Positions 11,600-46,904 of a stretch of 64,000 nucleotides of DNA are shown here, piece by piece. Within the stretch, counting starts at the first letter, position 1; each line of letters starts with the position of its first letter. Under the pieces are notes generated by a model. The model worked only from the letters and a program-made list of their open reading frames with translations. It was not told where the DNA came from and did no database searches. The DNA lies in contig NZ_QVNU01000010.1 of assembly GCF_003545715.1 (NCBI RefSeq), positions 62,001 through 126,000 of the forward strand. Reading direction: 5' to 3'. The stretch is from Taibaiella koreensis. Its GTDB lineage: Bacteria; Bacteroidota; Bacteroidia; Chitinophagales; Chitinophagaceae. A program made the position numbers and the translations under genes.

Positions 11600-11806
11600 C
11601 TAGCAACCGGTACAGCCGGGATTGGTTTCAACAGTTAAACATCTAGGCGGCTGAGTAGGGCATGTAATTTGATAGGTAAGGTCACACAAAATGGGGCATG
11701 TATTTTGCCTGGTTGCTTTTCCTCCGATCAAATGAACCGATGCTAATGGAGATATCTTTTCTTTAGATAAAACCAATTTATTTAAGGAGATCTTTGTTTT
11801 TTTCAT
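11600..11806 (-). CDS. RiPP precursor peptide A (class I lanthipeptide-like GG leader)
   Basis: A 68-residue peptide. The leader 'MKKTKISLNKLVLSKEKI' plus 'SPLASVHLIGG' matches the leader shared by eight other peptides in this window: Lys-rich start, LxLxK repeat, a helix with Lys-Glu, then Gly-Gly. The core begins 'KATRQNTC' and holds six Cys with many Thr. In this Bacteroidota family the leader is recognised by a LanB-type dehydratase, Ser/Thr and Cys are cross-linked, and cleavage occurs after GG. No such enzyme is in the window, so maturation would have to happen in trans. It lies 81 bases downstream of precursor B on the same strand and probably shares its transcript. Lanthionine formation is inferred from the leader family only; disulfides or another modification are possible. 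Confidence 0.8.
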   Translation of the reverse strand: MKKTKISLNKLVLSKEKISPLASVHLIGGKATRQNTCPILCDLTYQITCPTQPPRCLTVETNPGCTGC

Positions 11807-11887
11807 AGTTGCTTTTTAAAACTTGAGGTTGTAAAGCACCACTGAAGATGATTTGCAACAGCATAGATATAAAACGGTCTTTCCGAG

Positions 11888-12205
11888 TTAGTTCCCTGCC
11901 ACGCAATAAATACAGGTATATGTGTTTAGACATGCATCACTTAAAGGTTTGCAGTCATTGCTGGCCGGGGATTGACATATTTGGCCGGGGTGGTATGTAA
12001 ACGGTTTAGGGCCGCAATTAGCCACTACAAGAGAATCCAGTAAGGTAGGACAGTTCGCCGCACATGACTCTCCGGCTGGGCTAGAAGCGCAATGTATAGC
12101 TGCTGAATCTCCGCCGCCCATCGTATGGGTCTTTTTACTAAGATCGACTATTTGATCTTTAGTCAGAATCAATTTTTTACCCAATTCAATTTTCTTCTTT
12201 TTCAT
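11888..12205 (-). CDS. RiPP precursor peptide B (class I lanthipeptide-like GG leader)
   Basis: A 105-residue peptide, the longest of the set. The leader 'MKKKKIELGKKLILTKDQ' runs to 'HTMGGG' at about residue 32. The core starts 'DSAAIHC' and contains nine Cys over about 73 residues, with many Ser, Thr, Pro and Asn. The start at 12205 gives the standard MKKKK leader. It is divergent from the LytS-type kinase whose start is at about 12409, leaving a 203-base shared upstream region, so the two could be co-regulated (inference). The core has no obvious similarity to the other cores in this window. It could be a lanthipeptide, a disulfide-rich peptide or a signal peptide-like molecule. Confidence 0.8.
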   Translation of the reverse strand: MKKKKIELGKKLILTKDQIVDLSKKTHTMGGGDSAAIHCASSPAGESCAANCPTLLDSLVVANCGPKPFTYHPGQICQSPASNDCKPLSDACLNTYTCIYCVAGN

Positions 12206-12408
12206 AAGATTATGTTTTTAGTAAAATTGAGCAGGTTTTACAACAAAAAAACTTCCGATTCACCGTTATGTCATTTGAGTTCATAATTCTGTAAGATTAG
12301 TCACAGGGATGTAAATGCAAAAGCTGTCCTCAAAGTCGGGCTGCTATGAAAAGCATGTCCTTAACCATACATCATTGAAATGATTTAATTTACCGTAAAT
12401 TATTTTGC

Positions 12409-15281
12409 TTGGTGAAAATTTTTCTCTGTAGCCTTCTCTGGTACTTATTTTTTTATACATACTGCCTGGCGCAGACGTATACCTACGCCCATTATGATAC
12501 AAAGGATGGCCTTGCGGGATCAACGGTATATGGTATGGCGCAAACCCGGGATGGTTTTATATGGTTTGGCACCGAAACGGGTTTAAGCCGTTTTGATGGG
12601 ATTCACTTCAAAACGTTCTCCACCGCCGACGGCTTACCGAGTAACGAAATTCTAACGCTCTTTCTTGACAGTAAGGGCCGGCTTTGGATGTCTCCTTTCA
12701 AAAATGCGGTCTGCTATTATGCAAATGGCAAAATCCATAACCAGGAAAATGATAGTACGCTAAAGAAGATTGATATTAGCTCGATCATCTATGGTATAGG
12801 GGAAAGTAGCAAAGGCGATATTCTGATCCAGCAATTCTTTAATACTACTATTGTCACAGCGGACAATCATGTCAAAAAATGTGCTATTGGTGTGGGCAAG
12901 CCTTCGGTGCGTGTTCCATATCCCTTTACTATCCGGTCTGCCGTTGGGGTCATTGTCGCCAACTTAGTAGAAATGCCAGCTGAAATCCGAGAAAAAATAA
13001 AGCCCGATTGGCTTTATATAGGTAAAGCACAACATAGCAATAACCTATATTACGTGTTTCAGAATAATGAGGCCATTAAGATGATCAATGCAAAGGAAAA
13101 CCTGACTAAGACAATTCCCAAGAGGAGCACTATCTTGCTTTTAAATAATCATGAATATGCTGTATGCCCCCCATCTAACGGAACCGAGATTCTTGATCTG
13201 GTGCGCAAAGGAAGCTTTGAGGGCTATTTTAAGGATTGCCGGGTTCATTTTGTCATGAAGGATATAGAACAAAATCTATGGTTCTCTACACAGGGTCTGG
13301 GTGTATTTAAAGTAAACCGTAACCGGTTTAAAAACTTATTCATAACCGATGAAAAAGAAGCTATTGATATAAGGGACATTCACAAATTTGGACCTGATAT
13401 TTACATCGGCGGGTTTAATAATCATTACTGGAAAGTAAAGGCTGTGGACGATCTGTTTTTCAGGAGGGAAACACTAAAAAAACCAATATCTTTTCTTTCC
13501 GACCGGGCTTTTCTTCTGGCGATACCGGACCATACCATTATCCATAACGGGAGTTCCGATTTTCTGAATTTGAAAAGGCTTGAGCCAGATTCCCTGAGTG
13601 TACTAAAGACAACTTTATCCTTTGGAGACACCCTTTTGGCGGCAGGAAACTGGGGGGTATTTCTCATAAGCAAAAAGCAGGATCGGATTTTGAAAAAGAT
13701 ATATTCGGGCCGCGCGACTTGTGCTTATAAACAAGACGGGACTTATTATATCGGTACTTTCGATGGACTATATGAAATGGGGCCAGATCAGAAAATTATT
13801 TTTATAGGCGACCGGTTCCCTCAGTTCAAAAGTAGTACCAGCTCTTTCACAGAAAGTAGCGACGGCACCCTTTGGATCGGCAATGCGGACAATGGCGTAT
13901 GGGGTCTTCGGAGAGGCAAGATAATCGCAGCTTTTAATCTAAAAAACGGGTTGAACAGTAACCTGTGCCGTAGTCTTTTTGCTTACGAAAACAAACTTTG
14001 GGTTGGCACAGAAAAGGGACTTAATGAAATTGACATCTCCCCCGGTACCTATAGGTAACAGTAAGTATTACTACCAATGACGGATTAAACTCAAATGTTA
14101 TAAATGCCATTTGTAACGATAGTAATTTTGTTTATGTCGGCACTCCTATAGGTGTTACCGTATTCGATGAACGGAACATCAGGAGACATGGCATTTGTTA
14201 TCTTAACATGACGGCTATTACTGTTTCCGGGCGACCATTGAACCCCTTGCAGCAAAATTTAGTATTGAAGCACAAGGACAATAATATCTCTTTTGAATAT
14301 TCTGGGATATCTTTTCTATCAGAGGGTGATATTACCTATAGATACAGGATTAAAGGTCTGGATGATCACTGGAAGACGACCCGCGAATCTGTGCTGACCT
14401 ACCCATCTTTGCCATCCGGCGTATATACGTTGGAGTTGGTTGCCATCAACAAGTTCCGGGATGAAAGTAAAGTTTTGCAATATCACTTCAAGATTGAAAA
14501 GTCCATCTTAGAAACAGCCTGGTTCAGAATGATAGCCGCCCTTATAACAGTATTGTCTATTGTTCTGGTTGTCCGCTATACGATCCGGCTGTCGCACCGT
14601 AAAGAAACAAACAGGATAAAGATCGATTATAAAATAAAGTCACTCGAGCAAATGGCTTTAAGAGCACAGATGAATCCACATTTCATATTCAATTGCCTTA
14701 ATTCCATGCAGCAGTATATTTTGGTGGGCGATGTTAAAAAGGCTAATTTCTATTTGAGCAAGTTTTCAGAATTGGTAAGGGAGACATTAAATAACGCATC
14801 GAGGATCTATATTTCTCTGGAAGAAGAACTGAGCTACCTCACCAAGTATATAGACCTGGAGCGGTTGCAGCTTTCAAATACTTTTGATTATGAGATCGAA
14901 GTTGATCCTGAGCTCGACCAGAAAAAGATCATGGTGCCCAACATGGTATTACAGCCGTATGTTGAAAATGCGATAAAGCACGGGTTAAGCAGAGTAACGG
15001 CACACGGGCGTTTGCGTGTACGGTTCGGCCTGCTTCGGGAACAGCAAATATTGGAATGTATTGTTGAAGATAACGGACCTGGCATTGAACATGTATCGTC
15101 TAATTCCAAATCACCCCTTAGAAAAGACCGGTCAAAGGGCATGTCGATAACCGGTAAACGGATTGACACCCTGAATGAGCTTAGCTCGCAGGTGGCGCCA
15201 ATCAAATTGCGGGTCCGAGACATCAGTAATGAGCATACAGGAGCTACCGGTACCAGAATAAGTATTGACTTCCCATTCTAA
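12409..15281 (+). pseudogene. LytS-type sensor kinase with beta-propeller sensor, frameshifted
   Basis: The first part (12409-14058) has a signal peptide and two-component propeller repeats ('DGFIWFGTETGLSRFDG', 'ADGLPSNEILTLFLDSKG'). A Y_Y_Y domain ('GDITYRYRIKGLDDHW') follows, then a transmembrane helix ('MIAALITVLSIVLVVRY'), the His_kinase motif 'QMNPHFIFNCLNSMQQY' near joined residue 757, and an ATPase domain ('LQPYVENAIKHGL', 'VEDNGPGIEH'). A -1 shift is needed between 14052 and 14058. The upstream frame stops at TAA 14056-14058, whereas 'VTVSITTNDGLNSN' continues in the next frame from 14055; that downstream frame itself has a stop at 14052. One missing G explains it. The start is TTG 12409 or GTG 12412, because no ATG exists after the upstream in-frame stop. 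The partner regulator follows after 5 bases. Confidence 0.82.
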
Positions 15282-15286
15282 TATCT

Positions 15287-16032: not shown

Positions 16033-16248
16033 ACAAAGAAATAGGCTCAAAACCCGGAATAATCCATTGTACCTTTTGCTGGAATTCGTTTGTTAATTAA
16101 ACCCTGGCCTGCTTTTGCTGTCCATAAGTATACCATTCCTATATAAAAGACAAAATATTGCACTTTTATTTATGTCAATTCACAGCCCAGTATTGCCAGC
16201 CTTGGAGGATAAACTTTGTGTACACGACGATAAAGGCAATCTGAATAG

Positions 16249-16473: not shown

Positions 16474-16500
16474 GGCACCTGTCTTAATCACCATTTTTTT

Positions 16501-20431: not shown

Positions 20432-20786
20432 CCGGCTAAGCGGGTGCATTAGCTCCGGATCTTCCATTGGAAGGAGGAATACAGCTTCCATTGGCGATAG
20501 TTACATTAATAGAATACTTGAGTCAGCTTAACAACGGAAAGAAATGTGGTGGGTCTGGCTTATTCAATTCAGGCATTCGTTTTGCCGATAAGGCGATAAT
20601 AGGCTACTTTTTATAGAGCCTTCTCTTCCATTGGCGAAACACTGCAGATATTGCTTTTTAGGTACGGATAATCAATGGTGCTTTTGTTGGGCGTTTCTTT
20701 GGTTTAGTATTGCAATAATGCTGAACATTCGCCCCACGGCAGAGCCTGGCTAAAGACAGGGGTGGACATCACTAAAGACCACAACA

Positions 20787-20978
20787 ATGAAAAAGAAAAA
20801 TGTGAGTTTAAGTAAAAAGCTTTTGTTGCAGAAGGAAAATATTGCTGTTTTAAATGCAGGACAGATTAAAGGCGGCTTTTCGTTTGATTGCTCTATCAGA
20901 GGTACGTGCCCGCCTAACTGTGTTAACTCAATAGGCGGTACCTGTTTCGGTTCTGCATGCATTTGCTCTGGCGGATAA
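20787..20978 (+). CDS. RiPP precursor peptide C (class I lanthipeptide-like GG leader)
   Basis: A 63-residue peptide. The leader 'MKKKNVSLSKKLLLQKEN' continues 'IAVLNAGQIKGG' and closely matches the other leaders here. The core from 'FSFDCSIRGTC' onward is short (33 residues) and has six Cys, with Ser and Thr close to them and Gly at the end. It stands alone with its own strong terminator 49 bases after the stop. Enzymes for maturation are absent nearby, so modification in trans is assumed. The core is compact enough to be a lanthipeptide or a disulfide-knotted peptide. Confidence 0.8.
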   Translation: MKKKNVSLSKKLLLQKENIAVLNAGQIKGGFSFDCSIRGTCPPNCVNSIGGTCFGSACICSGG

Positions 20979-28133: not shown

Positions 28134-28349
28134 TTAGCATGTCGTCTCGTGATTCGGGCATATTGTCTCCCTCGTAGGGCAGCCATTTGCGCAGGTAAGG
28201 AATATTGTAGGTAGCTGACAGGCGCCGTGAGCCGGGCAGGTATCTGTAAGTCCGCCACCGACTACTGCTGCGTAATGCGCTTCGCCCAATTTCGAAACAA
28301 AATCCTTACCCAATGCTAATTTCTGCAATTTCAAATTTTTCTTTTTCAT
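28134..28349 (-). CDS. RiPP precursor peptide D (class I lanthipeptide-like GG leader)
   Basis: A 71-residue peptide. The leader 'MKKKNLKLQKLALGKDFV' ends at 'HYAAVVGGG'. The core starts 'LTDTCPAHGAC' and has six Cys with many Thr. The gene lies 253 bases upstream of the LytS/LytTR pair on the same strand and could be cotranscribed or be its target. A TATCTTTA sequence about 25 bases upstream of the start approximates a -7 promoter box. The core opening 'LTDTCP' is also found in the decayed precursor at 29554-29822, so the two are relatives. No maturation enzyme is nearby. Confidence 0.8.
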   Translation of the reverse strand: MKKKNLKLQKLALGKDFVSKLGEAHYAAVVGGGLTDTCPAHGACQLPTIFLTCANGCPTRETICPNHETTC

Positions 28350-29553: not shown

Positions 29554-29822
29554 TTAATCGCAGACAGCCGGAGTAGTATCTTTTACGTAGCAATTCGGAG
29601 AGGTATTGGTACCTCCGCAACAGTTTGTTGCTGGGCAAATGTTGACAGAGGGTTGGCATTGGCGGTTAGCGGGCACCCCGTAACGTAGGGCAGCTTGCGG
29701 TATAGATACAACCACAGGGGAAGACTAACAGGACAAGTATCCGTTAAACAACAATTTCCCACATCCGAATTTTTATGCCCGATTAGACTGTTAACTGAAT
29801 TTCTGGTGCGGGATTCGAACAT
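29554..29822 (-). pseudogene. Decayed RiPP precursor peptide E
   Basis: From ATG 29822 one frame reads through 'DVGNCCLTDTCPVSLP'. After a run of four C (plus-strand G 29717-29720) a different frame continues 'SIPQAALRYGVPANRQ', 'NICPATNCCGGTNTSPN' and 'CYVKDTTPAVCD' to a TAA at 29554. Five C would join the frames. 'LTDTCP' is identical to the core start of precursor D, and 'CPATNC' recurs in precursor G. This shows it belongs to the same family. The leader is badly damaged: no MKKK start and no clear GG. It lies just downstream of the immunity gene of the RHS toxin and is followed by the tandem terminator. Confidence 0.6.
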
Positions 29823-30190: not shown

Positions 30191-33100
30191 TTAATATATA
30201 AATCCGGGTCCTCCTACATGTAGAAGTTCCCTTGTTAAGTTATCAATAACTACTGACTGTCCGGTTGTTGGATGCACATATCTTGTTGCTGAATTGGCTT
30301 TGTTTACCATATTTACAGCATCAAAACTTTTACCCTTCTTTACGGCTTCCGTAATTTGTTCAGCTGTCCAACCTCTCTTAGATAATTGTCCCGCCCATTT
30401 GGCTTCCGATTTGAATGCACCATAAACCCACCTACTTCCTCTCTTAGCAGCTTTAGTACCCCTAGCTCCTCTCGTCGCCAACCGCGCCACCGTCCTGCCT
30501 GCTTTCATCTGGCTGAGGCTGGGTACCAGTATGCCCGCCGCGCTAAGACCGGCCCCAACATAATCACCCTGGTATATCGAGAACCCGGCGCTTGCAGCAT
30601 CAGCGATCTGGCTCAGTACCGGGACCTCCGTCGCTGCAATTGCATCACACATGGCGCCCATTGACTGCGCATCGGAAGGCATCGGCATCAAGCCCATTTC
30701 TGCGGCCCGCTTGTAAGCGTCCATATTAGGCTCCTGTGCAGTCTCTATTTCAGAAAGATCGACACGCCCATCGCCAACAGGAGCGTCAACATTCGGCATT
30801 GCGGCATCGGCCACCTTGCCGGATGCATTTCCGCTGGACCCGCCATTGCTGCGCGGGGAATGCCTTGTATACCTGCCGGAGCCGTTGCCTATGGCGCCAC
30901 GTGCCCAGATCGGTGGCGCACCAATATACCCACCGGAAAACCCTTCGTGCGGTACGATCCTATTCTTATGACTCTTTCCGCCAACCACAACATTATCCAA
31001 CCAGTAACCGTAGTTCATATATAGATCCCACAGGAGCTTACTAACAAAGTTGCCATCTACCAGCCCATACGGATCGGTGCGGCTAACCGGATTATTGGAC
31101 ATTGCGGCATAAGGACTCTTGATATCGCTTAAGCCCGCCAGCGGGTCAATGCTGTTAAAGCGGCCGATCTGCGCATCGTACTGGCGGAAGTCAAAATCCA
31201 TCGTATTCAGCCCCAGCTCGGTCTGGTTGGCGTTACCTTGGTAACGGTGCCGGTTATCCTTAAAGCCCGAGGCAGCCATACCGATATTACCCATAGGCAA
31301 GCCGTGTGGATAATAATGGGTTTCTTCCTTCAGCTTCCCGCGCGTAAAGCGGAGCACCATCTGATCAAAGAACACATCAATCGTACTAAAGCCATTCAGG
31401 TAGACCGCCAGGTAGCCATTGGCAGGTATTACCAGCGGTTCCGTCGTGCCTATCTCGCTCCAGGTACCATTCCCGTTCGCCTGAAAAGCCCCGCTGAAGC
31501 TGCTGACGATCTGCATATTCTCACTGAAGAGAACATAATTGAGGTAAGCTTTCGGACGGCTGGGATTGGTCGTACTATTTACAATATTAGTAAACTGCGC
31601 GTAATTATTGCCGTTAAATACTTGGTTAACCAGTTGGGGATTGTGGCTTTCGCTGCCACCCAAACCGCCTACGCCGGCGGTCAGGGTACTGAGGATACTC
31701 CCGAGCATAACAGATGCGTTGACCGGCGCATCTGCTCCCGGGTTATAGCCCTCGTAGAAGCTGTTGACCATCATTTCCACTTTATCGCCGGCCATCACCC
31801 GCATAAGCAGCGCCGTTCCTACCCGATGATCAGCCTGCGAGCCATTCACCCTCCCAGCCTGCCGGTTCTCCACGTCCGTACTGGAAGGGTTTGCCTCGGA
31901 AATTTCCACGTGATGATCGAAGTAAAGGCTTTCCAGTCCTGCACTTGCTACTTCGTAGGTTCCCAGGTATTCTAGTATCGGGTACATATACACATCCACC
32001 ACGCTGCGTATATTGCCCAAATGATCTTTTACAAAGAACTCTTCCTTGTTGGTGCCCGCCATATTATCATAAACTGTTCTTCCTACCGGTGTGTAGGAAT
32101 ACTGCAAGGTGTCGTCGCGGTACACCTGGTTCCCGATATAAGACAGCTTGTTCACCTTCCCGTTTACCACATCATTAATGATCTCGTATATGCGGCTGCC
32201 TTCAGCATCATAGGAGTATTGGATCTTATTCCCATTGCTGAAAGCAACAGAAACCGGCTTATTGAAATGGTTGTATATTATGGTATCGACTTTTTTGTTC
32301 TTGTCTTTCGAGAGATTACCGTTAGCGTCATAGGTATAATCGTTGGTGCCGCTGTTGTTATTGACAAAGTCGCCGAGCGCGTAGTTATAGGTTACTGTAT
32401 CTTCCACACGCAAAAGCCGGTTGCTGTTAGCCTCATATACATAATTCAGCCGGTCCATATCAACCGGTACTATGGAGCTGCCACCAGATGGAATGCCCAT
32501 GCCGCGCTGCTTCATGGATTTTATATTACCGTTTGCATCATAGGCAAGGTTCGACACGGAATAATCGGTCCAGGTACTAGCCCAGGCACCGGATGGATAA
32601 GTAGTATTTACCTCCCATTTACGGTAATCAGCGGCCTTTAATCTGCCGCTATGGTCGTAGTTATAACCATAAGCCATAGCGTTGCCTGAAGCCCCCCGCC
32701 AGATCATACCAGTAATGTTACCATCCAGCTTGCGCTTGCTGAATCCGTAATCATATTTAAGCGATTGCCCGAAGCTGCGGCTTTCTCCACCTTTATTGCC
32801 GGTTTCGGCATAAATGGCGTTGATACCCGTCAGCTGTCCGCGGATGTTATAGGAAAGGTCCTGAACCTCTCCGTAATTGCCGAGCACCTGCCGTTTTTCA
32901 TTGCCGAGCTCATCATAGTCATGGATAGAGAGTATCTGCCAGCCGCCATCATCTACCTTGTGGCTTTGTTTGAGCAGCCTGCCGGTACCGGTTTCGTATT
33001 CAAAGCTATTCAGCTCACTATGTGTACTAGCCCCCTGAGCATTGAGCTGGTTAATCGAAGTATGTTTCGCCAGCAGGAGCCGGTTGCCGAAATCAAATTG

Positions 33101-34690
33101 TGCGCTGACAAAATTCGCCCTGCGGTATACCGTTTGGCTTTCGCTGGCCAGTTTATGAAAGGAAGCTACACCGATCTGCCTGCCTTTATCATCATAATAA
33201 TAAACTGTTTGCGTCCAGTCGCCGATACCGGCCGGCGCGTCGGCAGAACGCAGTATCCGTTGCTTGCTACCCGTGACCATTCCGTGTGTACGGAGGCTGC
33301 GGACCGGGATCTCAGCACCCGGAACAGACAGCAGATCGGCTGAAAAACCCTGTGTGCTCAGCCAGAGGTTATAGATATAATTATTGTTGTCCAGCGTCTT
33401 TGCATAGCTATCATAATAGGTATAGCTCATGATGGTATTACCCGTCACGGTTGTTTCGCCGGGCACAATGCCTTCCCCAGCATCGGACGCCAGGTAATAC
33501 AGAATGTTGGACGCGGTAAGGCCGCCTGGTGGGGCGTCGATGCTGGCCTGCCAGGCATCACGGGATTGCGTGGAATTCAACAGCGAGGTAGCGATCATAC
33601 GGTCCGATTTATCATAATACATGATTTCCCATTGGCCCGCTGCTTTCTCTGTAGGTGTCTGCCGCATCACAATACGTTTATAGCGATCATAAACGTAATA
33701 CTGGAAATCACCCTGGCCCGGTTTCCGGTAAGCGCTCATCCGACCTTTTGTATCGTATTGGTACTGGAAGCAGAGACTGTTGAGAATGGCGTCGCTTATA
33801 GTTGTAGCGCTGGTTCCTATGGCTTCCGCCGCATTGGGCGGAATAATGTACCGGAGCCGTCCGGCTTCATCATAGACATAAAACTTTTTTGATATAGTAA
33901 ACGTGACTGAGGGCACTACACCGACCATGTCGGTTACAATCTGCTTGTAGACCAGTCGCCCGCTTTTATCCGTATATCCTTCGCTGATATGGCCTTCCTC
34001 ATCCGTTACCATGTTACCGAACAGCTCATTGATCTTATAATAACCGGGTGAAGCGGGCTTTTTCGAAGCATTTAGTTTCCAGATACGGATTGTGCTGGCT
34101 TCGTTGGCTTTCAGCAGGGAAGTTGTTCCCTCGTCCTGGCCGATAAAGCTTTTACCCGGCGCCAGGTGCTTTTCGCCGCGCTTTGTTGCAGAGGATACAT
34201 TGACTACGCCACTATAGGCTGTATATCCTTCACCGGGATAGAGCGAGGCATAATAAGACTTTTGCTCGGAAAATGGCGATACCGTAAAGCCGGCAGTATT
34301 GGCGTAGGGCAGGTATTCATATTGCTTTCCCGCCAGGCTCCGGTTATCGTAAGGGATTACCAGGTTCTTCTTGCCACTGCTGTTGAAATTTCGGACAATG
34401 GTCTGGATACCCTCACCTGCGCCGTTGAAATAGGTAGTGGACATACCAACATCGGATACAGCGCTGCTTTCCGTAATGCTGGCTTCATTGTCTATTGGAA
34501 TGAAAGGAATGAACGTCCGGACGTAGTTATTATTATCATCCCCGAAAAGATTGTAGCCCGGGTGCACCGGTAGTTCCGTCGCTGCACCTGCAGGGGCCGT
34601 CTCTGATAGTACCGGCAGGTTCTGGGCATGAATACTTGACAATCCCAGGCAGGCCACAGCCAATAAAAAGCTATTTATATAAAATTTCAT
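30191..34690 (-). CDS. RHS polymorphic toxin with colicin E5-like C-terminal ribonuclease
   Basis: The start at 34690 ('MKFYINSFLLAVACLGLSSI') gives a signal peptide; the frame is open further up to 34813. The product has about 1499 residues. The N-terminal part is the DUF6443-type domain that begins many Bacteroidota RHS proteins, followed by YD-repeat segments ('YSYDAEGSRIYE', 'YNYDHSGRLKAADYRKW') and an RHS core near 1160-1207 ('QYDAQIGRFNSIDPLAGLSD', 'NNPVSRTDPYGL'). The last ~75 residues ('KWAGQLSKRGWTAEQITEAV', 'NKANSATRYVHPTTGQSVVI', 'DNLTRELLHVGG') match the colicin E5 RNase pattern. Enzymes of that family cut tRNA anticodons of Tyr, His, Asn and Asp. The tip and next gene are AT-rich relative to the core, the usual sign of toxin-tip exchange. 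Cargo of this kind kills or inhibits neighbouring cells. Confidence 0.82.
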   Translation of the reverse strand: MKFYINSFLLAVACLGLSSIHAQNLPVLSETAPAGAATELPVHPGYNLFGDDNNNYVRTFIPFIPIDNEASITESSAVSDVGMSTTYFNGAGEGIQTIVRNFNSSGKKNLVIPYDNRSLAGKQYEYLPYANTAGFTVSPFSEQKSYYASLYPGEGYTAYSGVVNVSSATKRGEKHLAPGKSFIGQDEGTTSLLKANEASTIRIWKLNASKKPASPGYYKINELFGNMVTDEEGHISEGYTDKSGRLVYKQIVTDMVGVVPSVTFTISKKFYVYDEAGRLRYIIPPNAAEAIGTSATTISDAILNSLCFQYQYDTKGRMSAYRKPGQGDFQYYVYDRYKRIVMRQTPTEKAAGQWEIMYYDKSDRMIATSLLNSTQSRDAWQASIDAPPGGLTASNILYYLASDAGEGIVPGETTVTGNTIMSYTYYDSYAKTLDNNNYIYNLWLSTQGFSADLLSVPGAEIPVRSLRTHGMVTGSKQRILRSADAPAGIGDWTQTVYYYDDKGRQIGVASFHKLASESQTVYRRANFVSAQFDFGNRLLLAKHTSINQLNAQGASTHSELNSFEYETGTGRLLKQSHKVDDGGWQILSIHDYDELGNEKRQVLGNYGEVQDLSYNIRGQLTGINAIYAETGNKGGESRSFGQSLKYDYGFSKRKLDGNITGMIWRGASGNAMAYGYNYDHSGRLKAADYRKWEVNTTYPSGAWASTWTDYSVSNLAYDANGNIKSMKQRGMGIPSGGSSIVPVDMDRLNYVYEANSNRLLRVEDTVTYNYALGDFVNNNSGTNDYTYDANGNLSKDKNKKVDTIIYNHFNKPVSVAFSNGNKIQYSYDAEGSRIYEIINDVVNGKVNKLSYIGNQVYRDDTLQYSYTPVGRTVYDNMAGTNKEEFFVKDHLGNIRSVVDVYMYPILEYLGTYEVASAGLESLYFDHHVEISEANPSSTDVENRQAGRVNGSQADHRVGTALLMRVMAGDKVEMMVNSFYEGYNPGADAPVNASVMLGSILSTLTAGVGGLGGSESHNPQLVNQVFNGNNYAQFTNIVNSTTNPSRPKAYLNYVLFSENMQIVSSFSGAFQANGNGTWSEIGTTEPLVIPANGYLAVYLNGFSTIDVFFDQMVLRFTRGKLKEETHYYPHGLPMGNIGMAASGFKDNRHRYQGNANQTELGLNTMDFDFRQYDAQIGRFNSIDPLAGLSDIKSPYAAMSNNPVSRTDPYGLVDGNFVSKLLWDLYMNYGYWLDNVVVGGKSHKNRIVPHEGFSGGYIGAPPIWARGAIGNGSGRYTRHSPRSNGGSSGNASGKVADAAMPNVDAPVGDGRVDLSEIETAQEPNMDAYKRAAEMGLMPMPSDAQSMGAMCDAIAATEVPVLSQIADAASAGFSIYQGDYVGAGLSAAGILVPSLSQMKAGRTVARLATRGARGTKAAKRGSRWVYGAFKSEAKWAGQLSKRGWTAEQITEAVKKGKSFDAVNMVNKANSATRYVHPTTGQSVVIDNLTRELLHVGGPGFIY

Positions 34691-34712
34691 TGTTATTGTT
34701 TTTGATAGGAAA

Positions 34713-37700
34713 TTAATAGAGCTCACCACCGATTTTATAGTACTTTGTCTTCCTGACAATTTTTCCTTCCTGGTCCCGTTCAACGACAAGATTTCCCAGC
34801 TTATCATATTCAAAATAGACTACCCGGCCGCTGACGTCTGTTTTTGAGCCGGCGCCAAAGAGCGGCTCATAGGTGCTGGATTCCATCACAGCCTCTGCAG
34901 GATGCAGCCGGACCTCATCAAGATAGATCGTTGTGGTAATCGGGTCAAGCCTGACCTTTCCTGCAGCCGATGGCGTAAAACGATAAATGTATTGCTTCCA
35001 CAATCCTTTCGTGTAAGCGACTGCTGGTGTTGTAAGCAAAGTAGTCCCTATGTAGACTTTAGGTACGCCGCCTCTCGCCCAAAGGGACAGCAGGTACTCT
35101 TTGCCGGCGGCCAGGTTATTGACGCCGAGAATATAGCTATGGTCCAGGCTTCCCCCAGTTGGTGGAGGCGTCATCTGGTATATATATCTGCCGGTAACGC
35201 TGTTGAGCGTAGAGGAGGAAGATATATCCAACACTTTTCCTGAATTCATGTCCCAATTACCACGATTAGTGTAAGCGGTATTTGCACCATAGAAATCCTC
35301 GAAGCTGGAATAGGCTATGTCCTGGTACCTACAGTTCGCCTCGGCGAGCTTATCGCCAGAAGTAAGGTCCCAAACGGCACTCTGGTATTTGTTTTGGCCC
35401 AGGAACTGGGTCTCCAGCGCATTGCCCTTATCATCGAACAGCGTGGTGGTATTGGTACGTTGGACAAAGGGAACGGCAGCGGTCGTATTATTTATATCAA
35501 TGATCTTCTTATACGGATGTGCTGCGGGGCCGCTGGCCGACAGACCGGTATAATCCGTATACGTGATCGGCAGGTCCGTTAGCAGATCATTTTCACTCTT
35601 TCTGAAAAGCTTGGTACCGCTGTATTGAAAGCCGGTAATACTGGCATTTACAAGGGTATTGGAGTAAGGTTTTGTGCCTGTGTTGTCTTCGTCCCAATAT
35701 TCGACAGAAACAAGCTCTTCCAGATTGTTTTCGGTCATTTTATAGATTGCCGTACCCGGGAAGGTGGAAACATGTGTAGAGCCCGGACCATCCACATCAT
35801 AGTTATATATCAGCTTTGTTGTTCTTTTTTCGCCCTCGCTGTTTTTTGCAACGGAAGTTTTCGGGTTGTTCCTTTCGTCATACGCGATCCATACGGTGTC
35901 CGTAATGAAACGGGTATCAGAAGCATACTTTAAGGTAACGGTACGTGTAAGATTAGCTATTCCCGTATAAGGAGTGTAAACGTCGGTGAATATTTTTTTG
36001 TTAGGGTAGTATGGCGGCATTCCCATGGCTATCGGCGGAATTACTGAGGTGCCCGCGCTCACTTTTACCCTTTTGGTATTGGATACGTAGGAACTGGCTG
36101 AAAGGTCCACTGCCGAAAAAGTATAAGTGTTGATTACCTTCGAGACAATCTTATCATTATTGTCGTAACTGGTGATCTCACGCGGCAGGCCGATCTCCCA
36201 GTCTTTTATATACTGTTTCTGGGTGTAAGGGTATTCATAAAATTGCTTGCTTCCCGAAACCCGATAGTACCTGGGCGTAGATGTTGTAGGATCAGATATG
36301 TTGGTAAACAGCATTTCCCGCCGGGAAAGCAGCTCATTTGCCCCGTTGTACTCCCGTACATTGACCGTAGAATAACCATGATTGGAACCGTTGATCAGGT
36401 CATGGGGAGTCAGGAACATACTTTGGTAAACTACTTTTTGGGGGGTAGTCGCCGTACCGGTTGTAAAATACGTCGGGTAGTGAAAATATCCGCCAGGGGT
36501 GAATAGTTTTCCATCAGCATAAGATATCCTGATCCTCTTTAAATGATTGGGTTTCTCGTAATAATCTGCTTCTACTATGCTATCCACACGAACGGCATAG
36601 CGGTCGTCGGTCCCACGATAATTTTCAGCCGTAGGAAGACCCGTTAATACCTTCACTGCTTCGTTATCGCCATAATAAAAGGTAGCAGTGCCACCGTATT
36701 CGTTCGTTATCTTTTTCAGGAGTGACGCCTGCGCTCTCCAGTGGACCGGGAATCGGGATAAGCCATAGTTTGGGAGACCGGTTTCCCAATTGTGGGCTGG
36801 AATGGTGATCTTATTGCCGGAGGCTTCTAACGGCGCAGCAATTGAATCGCCGTTATAATAGCCGAATAGGTCTTTACCGCCATTTAGCCTGTCCGGAAGT
36901 GTATATTCTGTATTATACCCAAAAGAATAATAGGTTTTGCCATCGGTCATACCACAACCCAGCTTATCAAGCCGGTCAAGTTGAAACCGCTTGTTAAAAG
37001 TAGAATGCACAAACCGGTAAATGATGCAATTGGGACCCGAGTTGTGGGATATCTCCCTTAGCATAGCATGCTGTGCTTCATTCTTATTGGTAGCATGGTA
37101 GTAAAAATTTACTGATTCGTTATTGGGATATACGATGTCGGTCAGCGGGTAATAGGTTCCCTGGTACATCTCATCTTCAAGGCCAAGGTATGATGCACCT
37201 GCGCTGATCTCTGCTGCGCTGTAATTTCTGTATAGTTTAAAGAGGGAGGATTGGTATTCTCCGTAGTTGTATGTGATCTCGCTGCCATCGGCGAAGAGAA
37301 TTCTTTTGATCACCCACTGATCAATCTGTTTTGCATTGACCAGCTCATCGTAATCACCATCCCAGTACGTATTATCAAAATAACGTTTCCCCTGGAACTC
37401 GCCTACGATGAAAAAATACTGGTTTCCTACCTCATCTGTCACTTTAAATTCCAAAGTGTTTGGTGCATCGTCTACACCACTGACCTGGGTGGTAATCTTA
37501 GAAATCGCTGTCGTTCCGAGCATAGGCTGGATCTTTATATTCTGGTGGGGGTGCGTAAATATCTTACCATCTTTGCCGAGGTTAAATGTAACAGACTGTC
37601 CGCCTATAGAAAGGATGAAGTCATCACATTCGCCATCCCTATATACATTAGTCCGGGCAGTCTCCGCCGTTGTCTCGCCATAAACAGCCAGCTTTCCCTT

Positions 37701-40620: not shown

Positions 40621-40623
40621 AAT

Positions 40624-40797
40624 ATGAAAAAGAAAAGTTCAGACCAGAAAAAGCTCGACTTAAACAAGAAAGAGATTGTTTTATTAAACAATCAGGTTAG
40701 GATCGTAGGTGGCGCCACCTTGCCGCCAACGCTCTGCGGTTATGTTAGCGCAACATGTATTGAGATATGCATTACGCAAACTGGCACGACGTGCTAA
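40624..40797 (+). CDS. RiPP precursor peptide F (class I lanthipeptide-like GG leader)
   Basis: A 57-residue peptide. The leader 'MKKKSSDQKKLDLNKKEI' continues 'VLLNNQVRIVGG'. The core of 27 residues begins 'ATLPPTLCGYVSATC' and ends 'TGTTC', with four Cys and seven Thr/Ser. This is the smallest core in the window and the most lanthipeptide-like. The start codon is three bases past the stop of a gene fragment, and a short terminator follows at 40819-40836. Enzymes are absent nearby. Confidence 0.78.
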   Translation: MKKKSSDQKKLDLNKKEIVLLNNQVRIVGGATLPPTLCGYVSATCIEICITQTGTTC

Positions 40798-43198: not shown

Positions 43199-43436
43199 GG
43201 GTATGAATACTTACGGTTCTTCAGTGATGCAGCGGGGCATGGCCTGTAGCATCAGTGTGGTGAACTATTTGTCCGACACAGCGGAAACGATTACCAGCAA
43301 TGGCATAGCGATGAGCGGCAGTGGCGGCGTGTGGGCGAACGGCAGCGGCAGCTGGACGCTCCAGGATACCTTTAAAACGAATGGCAGTATAGTATCCGAT
43401 TTCACCCTGCAGCAGGGCACGCTCAACACCGAGGCG
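43197..43436 (+). pseudogene. Internal fragment of a surface adhesin
   Basis: The frame reads 'SSVMQRGMACSISVVNYLSD' and 'SGSWTLQDTFKTNGSIVSDF', then 'TLQQGTLNTE', the repeat style of LamG/T9SS adhesins in this phylum. It has neither signal peptide nor C-terminal domain. After 'LNTE' the resemblance stops although the frame stays open to 43499. Its left edge abuts the truncated gliding-domain gene and its right edge overlaps a leftward fragment, so both ends are breakpoints. Confidence 0.5.
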
Positions 43437-43631
43437 GCGCCGAAACCTGGTTCTGAATGGCCTTTTCCAATTGTAGTAAGCGCTTTAGTGGTGGATTGAA
43501 CGGATGGCTCAGATTAAAAGTCGCTTCTGCTCCTTTAATTTCAACTGTTATTAAACCTTCGGAGGTATTGAATTCGCTTTTAATTCAGCGGCATATGCTA
43601 CTCTTTCACAACGTCCTGCAAGTTGCTTCAT
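43423..43631 (-). pseudogene. Small frameshifted gene, family unknown
   Basis: A leftward frame from ATG 43631 reads 'MKQLAGRCERVAYAAELK'. After a run of four A (plus-strand T 43578-43581) the next frame continues 'SEFNTSEGLITVEIKGAEAT' and 'FNLSHPFNPPLKRLLQLEKA' to a TGA at 43423-43425. Five A would join them. The end overlaps the adhesin fragment, so it too may be truncated. It resembles a small soluble domain; an immunity or antitoxin role is only a guess. Confidence 0.4.
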
Positions 43632-43651
43632 CTTGTAATTTTTTGATTTAA

Positions 43652-43768
43652 CATTGCAATCTGGTTATTTTACAAGAGGGTGATAAATATGTTAAGGACG
43701 AAAAATTCGTAGTAAATAAATTAGTATTAAATCCCGTTGATTTTGATATTGAAAATTATCAAATTTAA
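43652..43768 (+). other. Remnant of a protein C-terminus in AT-rich DNA
   Basis: The frame 'LVILQEGDKYVKDEKFVVNK' then 'LVLNPVDFDIENYQI' ends at TAA 43766-43768, without a start. It lies 30 bases before an intact AT-rich gene. It looks like the last ~35 residues of a larger protein, possibly a toxin tip left behind with its immunity gene. Confidence 0.35.
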
Positions 43769-43798
43769 AAGAAAAATGTAACCTTAAAATAAGAATTG

Positions 43799-44440
43799 AT
43801 GTTAGTATATTTTGGTGATTTTTTGTACGATTCGCTTTTGGAAGCGCAAGAAGACTTTGGCACAATTGAGGAAGTAGATAGTGATGGTAATTTAGGCGTC
43901 AAAATGGATTTGCCGGCGCTTACAAGACTAGACACAGTGCACAAAGGCATAGAAGAATTTTACAGAAAACGGAATAACGGTTGGGAAAAAAGCTGGGAAA
44001 AAGCAAAAAATGGAAATATAGGCGGTTACATGAGATTAACTGAAACTAAGTATTTGTTTGCAGAAGATAACGGTATATATGGAGAGGGAGATGAGGAAGA
44101 TCTTAAATATTTTCGCCCACTTGATTATCCATCACCAGAAACCTATGTGGGTTTTATAATAAAACCGGACATTATATACAAGTCGCTCTATTATATGAGT
44201 GTAAGTAATTACGAATTGAATAATTTGGATTTGGATTATAATGGTTATACCCAAATGGCATTTGAGGCTCGTATATTTAATCATTGGCAACTTGTTTTAT
44301 TATACTATATGGATGGCACTGGTATTGGTTCGGTAGAAACGGAAACTTTTAAAACAGAGATGCCCAAAATTTTTCCGGGCTGGACTTGGGAAAATTTCAT
44401 TGCCAAATTTGAAAGTTTTCGTCTTTCTAATAAAAAATAA
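43799..44440 (+). CDS. AT-rich hypothetical protein, possible orphan immunity protein
   Basis: The product has 213 residues from the ATG at 43799 (a TTG just before it is less likely). It is acidic, soluble, without signal peptide or transmembrane segment, and rich in Tyr, Phe, Asn and Asp ('VYFGDFLYDSLLEAQEDFGT', 'FAEDNGIYGEGDEEDL', 'KIFPGWTWENFIAKFESF'). I do not recognise a family. Its base composition is clearly more AT-rich than the neighbours, like the toxin-tip/immunity pair at 29955-30480. It follows a remnant that reads like a protein C-terminus. That layout fits an immunity gene retained after loss of its toxin (inference). It ends with a strong terminator. Confidence 0.6.
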   Translation: MLVYFGDFLYDSLLEAQEDFGTIEEVDSDGNLGVKMDLPALTRLDTVHKGIEEFYRKRNNGWEKSWEKAKNGNIGGYMRLTETKYLFAEDNGIYGEGDEEDLKYFRPLDYPSPETYVGFIIKPDIIYKSLYYMSVSNYELNNLDLDYNGYTQMAFEARIFNHWQLVLLYYMDGTGIGSVETETFKTEMPKIFPGWTWENFIAKFESFRLSNKK

Positions 44441-44460
44441 ATAATTTCAAAAAAAGACAA

Positions 44461-44498
44461 AAAGCGGAACCTTTTAAGTAAGGCTCCGCTTTTTTTTA
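44461..44498 (+). terminator. Terminator of the AT-rich hypothetical gene
   Basis: AAAGCGGA (44461-44468) pairs with TCCGCTTT (44485-44492), extended by CCTT/AAGG, and is followed by a T run. The rest of 44499-44864 shows no gene. Confidence 0.85.
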
Positions 44499-44864
44499 TA
44501 GCATCTTTTTCGATTGATCTGCAATGTCAGCCCAATAATAGCCGGTGACTGGTGCCGATACTGTAACCATAGCATGCCAAACAGAGACCCGTAACACTGG
44601 TTTTGGTATATGATGATGAAGATGGCACCACACTTGTCAATTTAGTTCACACGTTTATCGCTTGCGGCACACATTTGATCATTAGCACTAGGCGTAGACC
44701 CGCTCATGCGTTAATATTGATATGTCTTAATTCAATTACAACGTTTTTTTATGTTTTAAAGTAACAGCTACCCCAAAGAAGCAGCTGGTTGTGCTTTTGG
44801 ACATGAAGGGAAGCTAGATCTTCTTCCGGAAATACTTTTATTATTCACCAATTAAAATTGCTTT

Positions 44865-45107
44865 ATGAAAAAGAAAAAGATTGATCTTAGTAAAAAATTA
44901 TTTCTGAACAAAGAAATGCTGGTAGCATTGAATGACCTCGCAAGCCAGAAGGTTATTGGCGGTACCAATGTTTCCTGTAATGGGGAGCCTTGCTTTACAC
45001 CCGGAGCCGGTAGCTGTCCGGCAACCAATTGCGGCGCTACGAATGCAATTACGGGTTGCCCTCCCTTTGTCTGCAATACGGCCGCCGGGTGTCAAGGTAC
45101 TAACTGA
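44865..45107 (+). CDS. RiPP precursor peptide G (class I lanthipeptide-like GG leader)
   Basis: An 80-residue peptide. The leader 'MKKKKIDLSKKLFLNKEM' continues to 'ASQKVIGG'. The core begins 'TNVSCNGEPC' and has seven Cys within 47 residues. It contains 'CPATNC', shared with decayed precursor E, and repeated 'TG/TN' units. It is followed 101 bases later by precursor H on the same strand with no terminator between, so the two are probably cotranscribed. It may act as one half of a two-peptide system (inference). Confidence 0.8.
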   Translation: MKKKKIDLSKKLFLNKEMLVALNDLASQKVIGGTNVSCNGEPCFTPGAGSCPATNCGATNAITGCPPFVCNTAAGCQGTN

Positions 45108-45208
45108 TATCCGTAGCAAAGTATGAACCGGCGTTAAAGCCTCAAATGTTGCTTGCGCTTACTATTCACTTTACATTTATTGAAACCCAGTTAATAAACC
45201 AGGAAAAA

Positions 45209-45427
45209 ATGAAAAAGAAAACCTTAAGCCTGAACAGGCTGACACTGAACAAAGCAACGATCACTCCTTTGGCGGGCAAAGAACAAATGGGCGTTCGCGG
45301 CGGTGAAACTGCTGCTGCCGATACCTGCATCTCCAGTCTACCATTTACCATGGTTAATTGTCCGGTGACTTTAAAACCGATGACGCAACCCTGCGGTACG
45401 CAAGGCTGTGGCGGCACAAGCGCCTAA
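45209..45427 (+). CDS. RiPP precursor peptide H (class I lanthipeptide-like GG leader)
   Basis: A 72-residue peptide. The ATG at 45209 is chosen because it gives the family start 'MKKKTLSLNRLTLNKATI' and follows an AGGA-like ribosome site; the frame is open further upstream. The leader ends 'EQMGVRGG'. The core 'ETAAADTCISSLPF' onward has four Cys and many Thr/Ser and ends in 'CGTQGCGGTSA'. It closes the G-H transcript at a very strong terminator. Confidence 0.78.
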   Translation: MKKKTLSLNRLTLNKATITPLAGKEQMGVRGGETAAADTCISSLPFTMVNCPVTLKPMTQPCGTQGCGGTSA

Positions 45428-45508
45428 AAGCATATATGCTACGGTGGCAAACGGGAAGCCTGGCATAACAAACCTATGCCTGCCCCTGCGTCAATGAAGC
45501 AATAGTAT

Positions 45509-45553
45509 AAACAGGCCGTTCCAAATTCAGGAACGGCCTGTTTGCTTTTTATA
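45509..45553 (+). terminator. Terminator of the RiPP G-H transcript
   Basis: A perfect 14-bp stem (45509-45522 with 45530-45543), a 7-base loop and a T-rich tail. Confidence 0.9.
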
Positions 45554-45696
45554 TTTCTATGCTTCTGAAGTATTAGGCATACTGCAAGATAGCACTGCTT
45601 TCTGTATGGTTCTTATATAAGTGATACCAGTGATCATTGGCCTCTCCCGGCGTCTGCGATCCGGATGCGTCGTCCGGGGCGGGGCATGGAAATTCC

Positions 45697-45704
45697 TATA
45701 TTTG
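45697..45704 (+). promoter_or_regulatory. Candidate -7 promoter box (TATATTTG)
   Basis: An exact TAnnTTTG match 42 bases before the preferred start at 45746. It lies inside the longer version of the open frame, which supports the shorter start. No clear -33 element. Confidence 0.4.
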
Positions 45705-45745
45705 ACCGGAAAATCGAAAGATCGCTTTACTTAATAAACACAAAC

Positions 45746-46489
45746 ATGGCAGTTTGGATTTATGCTTACGGGGCCAATGGCCTGCTTTCTGAAAATAACA
45801 ACGACAATCAAAAGTATATAGACGTTCTGAATACTGTCCCCTTAGACGAAGTTACTTTCCTGGACAGTATCAGGCCGCGTACTCCACCGGGCGAGCACAC
45901 CCGGAAACATTACGAGGAACACAGGGAGCAATTGGATCGTTGGCTGGAATCGTTGACGGCAGCAGACTACAATGCCTACCTGGACTCCATTAAATACCCC
46001 CGCATAGAAAAAGCAAAGCTTGTCGACTATTTCATTGCGGATGCGATAAGAAGGGAGCAGGAAGATCTTGATCGCTTTAATGCGGCCTATGCATTGAGCA
46101 GAGATGGACGGGCAAAATCAACATGGGAACCGGAGGGTGAGCGACATTTCATTAACCGGGTTCATGAATTCGGTAACCGTGATGGCTTGCGGCTGAACCT
46201 GATCAATGATCTGGTCAGGATTACAGGCTCATCTGATATCTTTTCCCATTTTGGGACCTTTCTTCATGATATATCGCCTGCAACGAAAGAATTCTATCAT
46301 GATTATTTCAAACGTGTTTTGCGTGCTTTTAAGAGTGATTTTATTCTATATACCCATGAATGGACAGGGCTCGACGATGAAGACAATGAGGCCTTCGATC
46401 TGGCTGAGCTCAAAGAATCGTCGAACTGGGAAGTAACCAGCAGCGATACGATACATACCATGAAGGATTTTTACTACGAAGGGCTTTAG
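45746..46489 (+). CDS. Hypothetical soluble protein between RiPP genes
   Basis: The frame is open from 45665, but the ATG at 45746 ('MAVWIYAYGANGLLSENN') is preferred because a promoter-like box lies between; 247 residues. No signal peptide or transmembrane segment. The protein is charged and helical ('HTRKHYEEHREQLDRWLESL', 'FIADAIRREQEDLDRFNAAY') with an acidic C-terminal part ('EWTGLDDEDNEAFDLAELK'). No family is recognised. It is flanked on both sides by strong terminators and sits between precursors H and I. A self-protection role for a peptide system would fit the place but nothing in the sequence proves it. Confidence 0.6.
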   Translation: MAVWIYAYGANGLLSENNNDNQKYIDVLNTVPLDEVTFLDSIRPRTPPGEHTRKHYEEHREQLDRWLESLTAADYNAYLDSIKYPRIEKAKLVDYFIADAIRREQEDLDRFNAAYALSRDGRAKSTWEPEGERHFINRVHEFGNRDGLRLNLINDLVRITGSSDIFSHFGTFLHDISPATKEFYHDYFKRVLRAFKSDFILYTHEWTGLDDEDNEAFDLAELKESSNWEVTSSDTIHTMKDFYYEGL

Positions 46490-46541
46490 GGCCTGATCAG
46501 GAACTATGATGGCAAGAGGTCCGGCATATACCGTTAGCCAC

Positions 46542-46573
46542 CACAAGAGCCGGTTCTTTCTCCGGCTCTTGTG
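46542..46573. terminator. Terminator hairpin between convergent genes
   Basis: A perfect 12-bp stem CACAAGAGCCGG (46542-46553) with its complement (46562-46573). It separates the hypothetical gene from leftward precursor I. Confidence 0.75.
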
Positions 46574-46670
46574 ATGTATCTATCTGGCGTATGTATTTTG
46601 CTGCACATAGTCTCTACGGTCGCTTATCCTGAATCTGCGCAGGCGGGCACTATTACCCCAAGGGGCCGGC

Positions 46671-46904
46671 TCAGCATATATCAACAGAATACACACATTG
46701 AGGCCCGAGCAGGGTGTCGCAATTGGCTTTAGTAAGTAATTGACAGTGCTGAAGACAGGTATCGTCAAACACGGTCTTGGGAGGAGGACACTGGCATAGC
46801 GAATTATCTGTTTGTCCGCCACTTACTTCACCTTGCCGGTGAAGCGACATGATAGCTTCTTTGCTGAACCGTAATCTGGACAGGCCGATTGCTTTTTTCT
46901 TCAT
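46671..46904 (-). CDS. RiPP precursor peptide I (class I lanthipeptide-like GG leader)
   Basis: A 77-residue peptide. The leader 'MKKKAIGLSRLRFSKEAI' continues 'MSLHRQGEVSGG'. The core 'QTDNSLCQCPPPKTV' onward has seven Cys and several Thr, Asp and Gln, with a CxC pair near its start. It is monocistronic and convergent with the hypothetical gene at 45746. It is the rightmost member of the nine-peptide set; beyond it the window becomes ordinary. Confidence 0.8.
   Translation of the reverse strand: MKKKAIGLSRLRFSKEAIMSLHRQGEVSGGQTDNSLCQCPPPKTVFDDTCLQHCQLLTKANCDTLLGPQCVYSVDIC

Follow-up and report, generated by a model that had tools for sequence, protein, structure and literature searches.

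The window studied here is a 64,000-nucleotide stretch of Taibaiella koreensis (contig NZ_QVNU01000010.1, positions 62,001 to 126,000). It carries eight intact genes for short peptides that have a lysine-rich leader ending in Gly-Gly (GG), followed by a cysteine-rich core, and these belong to a family of about 127 such genes scattered over the genome. The reading that we consider likely is a genome-wide dispersed library of class I lanthipeptide precursors, which would be served by a hub locus combining a LanB dehydratase with an exporter and by several LanC cyclases, with subsets of the genes under common control. The pairing of enzymes with substrates, the ring pattern, regulation, export and activity are predicted from sequence.

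The initial annotation had placed eight precursors with class I lanthipeptide/GG-type leaders, and a decayed ninth, in the window. All eight intact open reading frames (ORFs) were recovered at exactly those coordinates, in frame and with an ATG start. Each encodes a Lys-rich leader with a terminal GG and a core of 4–9 Cys, and each matches the profile NF038153 (NCBIfam lant_leader_L1a), four of them above the curated cut-off of 22 bits and the others at 14.3–17.3 bits. A whole-genome search with this profile returns exactly these eight genes inside the window, where the following features were recognised (aa, amino acids; nt, nucleotides; UTR, untranslated region).

11600..11806, minus strand: precursor, 68 aa, leader to ...HLIGG, 6-Cys core; NF038153 14.6 bits, below cut-off
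11888..12205, minus strand: precursor, 105 aa, leader to ...HTMGGG, 9-Cys core; NF038153 17.3 bits, below cut-off
20716..20767, plus strand: candidate H-type pseudoknot in the 5' UTR of gene 20787-20978, ATG about 20 nt downstream
20787..20978, plus strand: precursor, 63 aa, 6-Cys core; NF038153 32.9 bits, above cut-off
28134..28349, minus strand: precursor, 71 aa, 6-Cys core; NF038153 28.1 bits, above cut-off
29557..29762, minus strand: decayed precursor, frameshifted core remnant with no recognisable leader (tblastn)
40624..40797, plus strand: precursor, 57 aa, 4-Cys core; NF038153 16.2 bits, below cut-off
44865..45107, plus strand: precursor, 80 aa, 7-Cys core; NF038153 35 bits, above cut-off
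45209..45427, plus strand: precursor, 72 aa, 4-Cys core; NF038153 32.1 bits, above cut-off
45508-45544: terminator-like stem after gene 45209-45427
46671..46904, minus strand: precursor, 77 aa, 8-Cys core; NF038153 14.3 bits, below cut-off

The ninth gene stands in part. Its core remnant is real, with three frames matching the core of the intact precursor at C10:407260 (best E 9e-13, tblastn), but the leader described for it is unrecognisable. Similarly, the proposal that the genes mostly have their own terminators holds for some of them: a strict test for a stem followed by a T-run is passed by 32 of 127 precursor genes genome-wide, against 2.4 in shuffles, and a scan restricted to window positions 44000-47500 found 7 terminators against 3.3±1.9. 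The enzymes were described as absent from the window, and profiles for LanB, LanC and C39 have zero matches there; no ABC transporter was seen among the 20 window ORFs scanned against Pfam, out of 37 listed at ≥150 aa. The contig to which the window belongs is enriched in precursors (61 per Mb vs 21).

The genome holding the window (G000; 5,940,849 bases in 24 contigs, 99.65% complete) was searched with NF038153 at E≤10 in order to list all members. This gave 129 matches, 110 of them at E≤0.1 and 93 above the cut-off. The DNA and peptides of all 129 were read, and 127 of them were retained, being short ORFs that carry the leader; the two that were dropped are C16:549447, a protease-like frame, and C16:155127, which has 26 aa and an internal stop. 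Only one of the 129 matches is clearly an unrelated protein, so the leader is not a motif scattered through proteins of other kinds. In a set of 14 control genomes none matches at E≤0.1, compared with 7 of 59 genomes (G000 included) in the comparison described below; at E≤10, 5/14 controls match, none above the cut-off. Chance or an artefact of the hidden Markov model was rejected on these grounds.

The 127 genes lie on 12 contigs, 63 of them on the plus strand, and form 95 groups at spacings below 1.5 kb, 72 of which are single genes. One member, C18:617947, has no usual start codon at its leader. GG is present in 125 of the 127 peptides, the two without it being excluded from the core counts, and at least three Cys occur in 123 of the 125 cores. 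Cysteine is almost confined to the core, making up 6 of 3872 leader residues vs 796 of 5826 core residues, and Ser plus Thr equals or exceeds Cys in 121/125 cores. Nearly every gene pairs an LxLxK-type leader with its own core, rich in Cys, Thr, Ser and Pro. The cut between leader and core was made mechanically after GG; in a few peptides of the congeners G001 and G003 it is placed early. Grouping at ≥40% identity and ≥70% coverage, with composition correction, resolves the 125 cores into 113 groups with 101 singletons. Single-linkage at E≤1e-3 without that correction chained 66/125 cores, and these coarse clusters served the non-redundant spacing test given below. The view that the cores share almost nothing thus broadly holds, with exceptions such as the core of 11888-12205, which has a close paralogue at C20:328266.

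Occurrence of the leader was compared over 59 genomes, comprising G000 (where 110 of 148 candidates were scored) and 58 relatives. Leader matches at E≤0.1 are numerous in three Taibaiella genomes only (107, 73 and 65), and outside these three, four further genomes have one to three matches each. The number of leader genes kept is 79 in T. chishuiensis (G001) and 70 in G003, both of which also have LanB and LanC; one match was dropped from each (C8:207366 and C27:557449, respectively), and the core counts exclude 4/79 peptides of G001 (three without GG, one with GG and an empty core) and 5/70 of G003. For the congener G002, leaders, LanB and LanC were all not found. Within the genus, the presence and absence of leaders and enzymes therefore go together. 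Over the 59 genomes, LanB is found in 6/6 genomes with a leader above the cut-off, these six having been picked out through their best E-values, vs 2/53 of the others (Fisher 6e-7). Of 396 genomes sampled more widely from the class, 56 have a leader match at E≤0.1 and 27 have one above the cut-off. The next-highest count there after G000 is 11 (twice), mostly clustered on a single contig; at most 19 candidates were scored per genome in this sample, so that G000 shows 19, a number that no other listed genome reached.

A class I pathway requires a LanB dehydratase and a LanC cyclase, and both are encoded in G000. There are two LanB genes, a full-length one of 1074 aa on contig C16 and a shorter one of 922 aa on C20, and PF04738 and PF14028 both match the same two. 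At the hub locus on C16, one precursor gene lies upstream of LanB, and LanB is followed by an ABC exporter with a C39 peptidase, an HlyD-type protein and a regulator resembling Crp/Fnr. Along its entire length this exporter matches a bacteriocin exporter of the C39 type whose structure is solved, and it carries DCGPTC, which we take to be the C39 active-site motif. Four LanC genes lie on four contigs, none of them at the hub, and each is adjoined by a leader gene. The motifs WCYG and CHG are kept in all four, and alignment of the one on C19 (LanC_C19) with a solved LanC-like protein places both in register; they correspond to the C-gap-CH zinc triad named in the available text of PMC10352776. 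The counterpart locus of T. chishuiensis is fuller, with a LanC, LanB (56% identical), a second LanC, exporter (84%) and HlyD protein (68%). In G003 the counterparts of LanB, LanC_C18 and LanC_C19 are 89%, 78% and 92% identical, respectively, and the congeners hold 2–3 LanBs and 4–6 LanCs.

The initial annotation had suggested that one small, distant set of enzymes processes the scattered precursors, and LanB, LanC and C39-ABC genes are indeed all present in the genome: the C16 locus with LanB, C39-ABC and HlyD, the shorter LanB and the four LanCs stand against about 127 dispersed precursors. The usual class I arrangement, with precursors clustered beside LanB and LanC, is not the one seen here, as 10 of the 127 lie within 10 kb of any LanB or LanC gene and the window contains neither enzyme. 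The genome content supports an enzyme set that is probably shared.

Several further genes were recorded around these enzymes. The second LanB of G003, L228:6562-9663 (+) (C33:61813-64914), consists of two ORFs of 726 and 302 aa and is split or frameshifted. Directly upstream of LanC_C2 is a 400-aa protein with a hydrophobic N-terminal stretch (L044:7957-9162, minus strand), for which family scans gave no match; a 24% identical counterpart, L155:8387-9376 (-), stands beside a LanC in T. chishuiensis. The same species has a 328-aa protein beside LanB that matches erythromycin esterase and, beside a LanC, an E1/ThiF-like protein whose TOMM leader-binding match is weak and falls below the cut-off (L171:5773-6906, plus strand). 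A stand-alone C39 peptidase of about 160 aa with a lipoprotein-like start, L115:10129-10614 (-), adjoins a protein with a SecDF P1-head match.

The arrangement of residues within the cores is directional. Compared with within-core shuffles, the G000 cores have Ser/Thr five positions before Cys 262 times vs 143 (z 12.5). Because paralogues could inflate this signal, the count was repeated on one core per similarity cluster in G000 and the two congeners; the excess at -5 persists in the three species (78 vs 42.8, z 6.1; 77 vs 35.3, z 8.1; 66 vs 39.7, z 4.8), of which G003 is not independent of G000 and G001 largely is. Ser/Thr five positions after Cys shows no excess in the same non-redundant sets (z -1.4, -0.9 and -1.4). 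A directional [Ser/Thr]-x4-Cys is the pattern that thioether rings onto an upstream dehydrated residue could leave.

A comparison of two species suggests selection on individual cores. G000 and G003, with 127 and 70 genes, share 55 reciprocal best hits, 51 of them with a readable core, and 43 pairs pass thresholds of ≥50% core identity and ≥80% coverage; the eight window precursors are not among the 43. Mean identity in these pairs is 0.80 for the core vs 0.749 for the leader, and the ratio of nonsynonymous to synonymous rates (dN/dS) is about 0.09 and 0.14, respectively. Conservation differs by residue: 248/250 Cys, 209/231 Thr and 111/127 Ser are kept, compared with 69/119 Val. Ser/Thr remains Ser/Thr at 82/83 of the -5 positions, at 170/180 of positions -2, -3, -4 and -6 and at 86/95 of the others (first vs last, p 0.02). 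Both flanks are kept in 30 pairs, one in 8 and neither in 5, so that most of these scattered positions would predate the split between G000 and G003. In the alignable pairs, purifying selection on the cores seems strong and no weaker than on the leaders, suggesting that single peptides matter.

Two elements upstream of the genes point to control of subsets. The first is a dyad of 21 bp, CACTGCA-N7-TGCAGTG, which at most listed sites is followed about 8 bases later by a -7-like (T/G)AnnTTTG, as judged by eye. Allowing up to three mismatches, it occurs in 36/127 upstream regions of G000 (33 with a spacing of exactly 7) and in 19/71 of G003, compared with 11/558 long ORFs and 2/80 upstream regions of G001. 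The control, the pattern read in reverse, gave 1 site; as it contains CG steps, it may put the chance level too low. By our own arithmetic, chance would yield about 19 sites at ≤2 mismatches and about 1 when no more than one mismatch is allowed. The case therefore rests on sites with no more than one mismatch, of which the whole G000 genome has 17; at 14 of them a leader gene starts fewer than 120 bases downstream. The other three are before LanC_C19, before a microviridin-family precursor and inside a coding sequence. Nine of 23 two-mismatch sites precede leader genes, and the remainder are compatible with chance. In the 530 kb of G003 examined, 15 of 18 sites at ≤2 mismatches are before leader genes and one is before the counterpart of LanC_C19. 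At the hub locus dyad-like matches were found only at 4 mismatches, two inside genes and one about 480 bases before the precursor gene. The plain Bacteroidota promoter pattern is TTG-N18-22-TAnnTTTG; it is no commoner before precursors (3/127) than before long ORFs (17/558).

Some further dyad-type sites have neighbours of other kinds. The microviridin/marinostatin-family precursor, of 70 aa at L240:4293-4505 (+) (C10:268292-268504), matches NF033738 at 48 bits (cut-off 26) and has a perfect dyad upstream; the one listed neighbour that was scanned is a UvrD-like helicase. In G003, a one-mismatch dyad at C2:153810 precedes the short frame MKKKQLNLC, possibly a further decayed leader gene. Within the window, a dyad-type palindrome with 2 mismatches at 55644-55664 is followed after 71 nt by the gene for a TPR histidine kinase, 55735-57588 (+), which is overlapped by a LuxR-type response regulator gene, 57582-58247 (+). 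No good -7 element follows this palindrome by eye, and it could reflect chance or autoregulation. Judged by position alone, this response regulator and the Crp/Fnr-like protein of the hub locus are candidates for the factor that binds the dyad.

The second element is RNA-like and lies 16-28 bases before the ATG. It consists of a stem nnGC/GCnn and a loop nnCCCC that pairs with GGGGnn after AAAGACA, a candidate H-type pseudoknot. A pattern search found 25 distinct copies, 24 of them before leader genes. Pairing is seen in 90.4% of cells vs 80.8±1.3 in shuffles (0/500 as high) and 42-50% when slid, changes on both sides occur in 36 cells vs 13.5 (0/500 as many), and the covariation score is 0.381 vs 0.210. 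With whole-strand shuffles, stem P2 beats all 2000 on both measures; stem P1 exceeds them in double changes (153 vs a maximum of 140) and not in pairing (91, maximum 92), so that this test supports P2 clearly and P1 partly. A model of the element has 33 matches at E≤1e-3, overlaps counted, in 2.80 Mb of three genomes (1.74 Mb of it from G000). The DNA scanned was chosen around leader genes, although the portion from G000 by itself includes 558 ORFs of ≥300 aa. Of the 33 matches, 31 stand 16–28 nt before a leader gene (10, 11 and 10 per genome), one stands before a 77-aa GG peptide and one inside a coding sequence. The GG peptide, L078:6147-6377 (-), lies near a grasp-with-spasm ATP-grasp maturase (TIGR04192, above cut-off). 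On 23 loci of other Bacteroidota and T. chishuiensis the model found nothing at E≤1e-3, the best being L136 (E 0.0099) at the hub precursor of T. chishuiensis. Rfam 15 has 0 matches in the window at the gathering score, and under permissive settings L154, L235 and window 20600-20800 together yielded five weak matches, all below gathering; one of these, sR46 (16.7 of 50 bits), overlaps the pseudoknot.

Taken together, these observations suggest the following scheme. The precursors would be expressed mostly as single-gene units, some of them in co-regulated subsets controlled through the dyad just upstream of the -7-like element or through the 5'-UTR pseudoknot. The leader would dock onto the hub LanB, which would dehydrate Ser/Thr of the core, and one of the four unlinked LanCs would close the rings, often from Ser/Thr to the Cys five residues downstream. 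LanC_C19 is the best candidate cyclase for the dyad subset, since the same dyad precedes it. The C39-ABC/HlyD exporter beside the hub LanB would then cut after GG and secrete the product. A bolder version, for which we see the balance as roughly even, is a regulon of ribosomally synthesized and post-translationally modified peptides (RiPPs), in which two unrelated elements, the dyad and the pseudoknot, co-ordinate subsets of the roughly 127 genes, a cyclase and RiPP precursors of other classes. Selection would act on every peptide individually, and one LanB/exporter hub would run a standing toolkit of peptides with dozens of distinct functions, from which different signals would call up particular sets.

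Other explanations of the same genes have to be weighed. The products could be secreted, Cys-rich double-glycine peptides without lanthionine, processed by the C39-ABC exporter and closed by disulfides. GG leaders and a single exporter suffice for this, there are just two LanB genes for some 127 precursors, and the conservation of Cys, which exceeds that of any other core residue by a wide margin, would be expected of disulfides too. We nevertheless regard it as unlikely, as the leader is a curated class I lanthipeptide leader and Thr reaches 12.2% of core residues. Moreover, disulfides offer no reason for a spacing in which Ser/Thr stands before and not after Cys, and Ser/Thr at -5 is kept slightly better than elsewhere. 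LanB also tracks the leaders over the 59 genomes, and a LanC shares the dyad with them in two species.

The two remaining explanations concern the history of the genes and are both answered mainly by the 43 pairs. Descent of the scattered genes from many separate lanthipeptide clusters that lost their enzymes, leaving orphans that drift to decay, would account for the damaged members (window 29557-29762, C16:155127 with its internal stop and C18:617947) and for the several LanBs and LanCs of the congeners. Yet low core dN/dS, near-complete retention of Cys and flanks kept in 30/43 pairs, indicating that most of these genes are selected where they stand, make this very improbable, as do the control elements shared by part of the genes; for the alignable pairs it was rejected. 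The other explanation is a freely diversifying combinatorial library in which any core will do and no single peptide is selected. Core diversity is very high, turnover is large (127 and 70 genes yield just 55 reciprocal-best pairs, of which 43 align well), and no window gene is represented among those pairs. Cores that persist are, however, at least as constrained as leaders; the pairs were selected by similarity, so that survivors and not the birth of cores were tested. We find this explanation unlikely, and the term "combinatorial" in the initial annotation is unsupported, whereas core purifying selection fits many separately useful peptides. The dispersed lanthipeptide library remains the preferred reading.

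A number of observations weigh against that reading or narrow it. The C16 hub locus lacks a LanC; the LanCs beside their own leader genes could be dedicated to them, leaving the dispersed genes uncyclised, and the shorter LanB could take some of the substrates. It is in this assignment of enzymes to substrates that the reading is likeliest to be wrong. The family cut-off is missed by 36/129 leader matches, among them 4/8 of those in the window. Among all G000 cores, Ser/Thr is enriched also three before Cys (z 4.5) and two after it (z 4.9; non-redundant z 1.1, 4.3 and 1.9), the latter perhaps because of a Cys-Cys spacing of seven, itself enriched (z 4.0). The selection figures are approximate, since dS, at 1.5, approaches saturation and only pairs with ≥50% identity in the core entered the comparison. 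As for the control elements, more than 80 of the 127 genes have neither a dyad (36 at ≤3 mismatches) nor a pseudoknot (10 at E≤1e-3), no window precursor has a convincing dyad, and none was found at ≤2 mismatches in the 532 kb of G001 examined. The pseudoknot copies are related to one another, and several paired bases were already set by the search pattern and so are uninformative; double-change pairs (6 vs 5.4; 233/500 shuffles) and extra pair types (16 vs 14.1; 63/500) are not exceptional.

One other gene of the window may be mentioned, an RHS-repeat protein at 30191-34813 (-). At its C-terminal tip there is a match to the ribonuclease domain of Colicin E5, with 25.0 bits lying exactly at the cut-off, and the gene is polymorphic-toxin-like.

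Class I lanthipeptides are known from the phylum, for example the pinensins and the PedA15-type peptides of Pedobacter lusitanus; PedA15.2 has been processed with the C39 domain LahT150, according to the accessible part of PMC12328550. In the portion available of Walker et al. 2020 (PMC7268733), LxLxKx5L...GG leaders are described for class I lanthipeptides of Bacteroidetes, in clusters often with a C39 protease. Leader motif and GG end are the same as here, but the precursors are in gene clusters, and that portion describes no large dispersed library. LanB is reported absent from Bacteroidales in the text seen of PMC10352776. The accessible part of the review of promiscuous lanthipeptide enzymes (PMC12328550) mentions PedA15.2 and not a dispersed class I library. 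Our literature search found no paper naming Taibaiella with lanthipeptides and no dispersed library reported for the genus, which is weak evidence of novelty as subscription papers were mostly outside the search. Leaders of this type and scattered libraries served by promiscuous enzymes being already known, the two control elements are the newest part. They are also the sole tie to the microviridin/marinostatin and grasp-with-spasm RiPPs, whose chemistry is unrelated.

The closest analogue is the prochlorosins and synechococsins of marine picocyanobacteria, which are of class II. As given in the available text of PMC10783134 and PMC9872173, one promiscuous synthetase (ProcM or SyncM) acts there on tens of scattered precursors, 29 for ProcM and 79-83 in Synechococcus, with a conserved leader ending in GG, a variable core and a transporter gene, lanTP, in complete clusters. 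Many dispersed precursors, one leader and divergent cores are common to both systems, with 127 genes, 95 gene groups and 113 core groups in the present case. The prochlorosins use LanM and a Nif11 family leader, whereas here there are separate class I LanB and stand-alone LanC proteins and the LxLxK leader of NF038153, in Bacteroidota; no genome-wide search was aimed at LanM. Also found here are some 127 members in one genome, several LanCs, measurable purifying selection on cores and shared cis elements. Mining only beside LanB and LanC would miss most of these precursors. If the reading is correct, the system offers two testable points, selection on single cores and control elements shared by part of the genes. 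It would also supply peptide engineering with a promiscuous LanB/LanC set, along with more than 100 core scaffolds from nature. A candidate regulatory RNA would come with it, and the dyad would give a handle on the timing of library production. It would then be an unusually large natural peptide toolkit and a class I counterpart of the prochlorosins in Bacteroidota, with more precursors in one genome than the 79-83 reported for Synechococcus.

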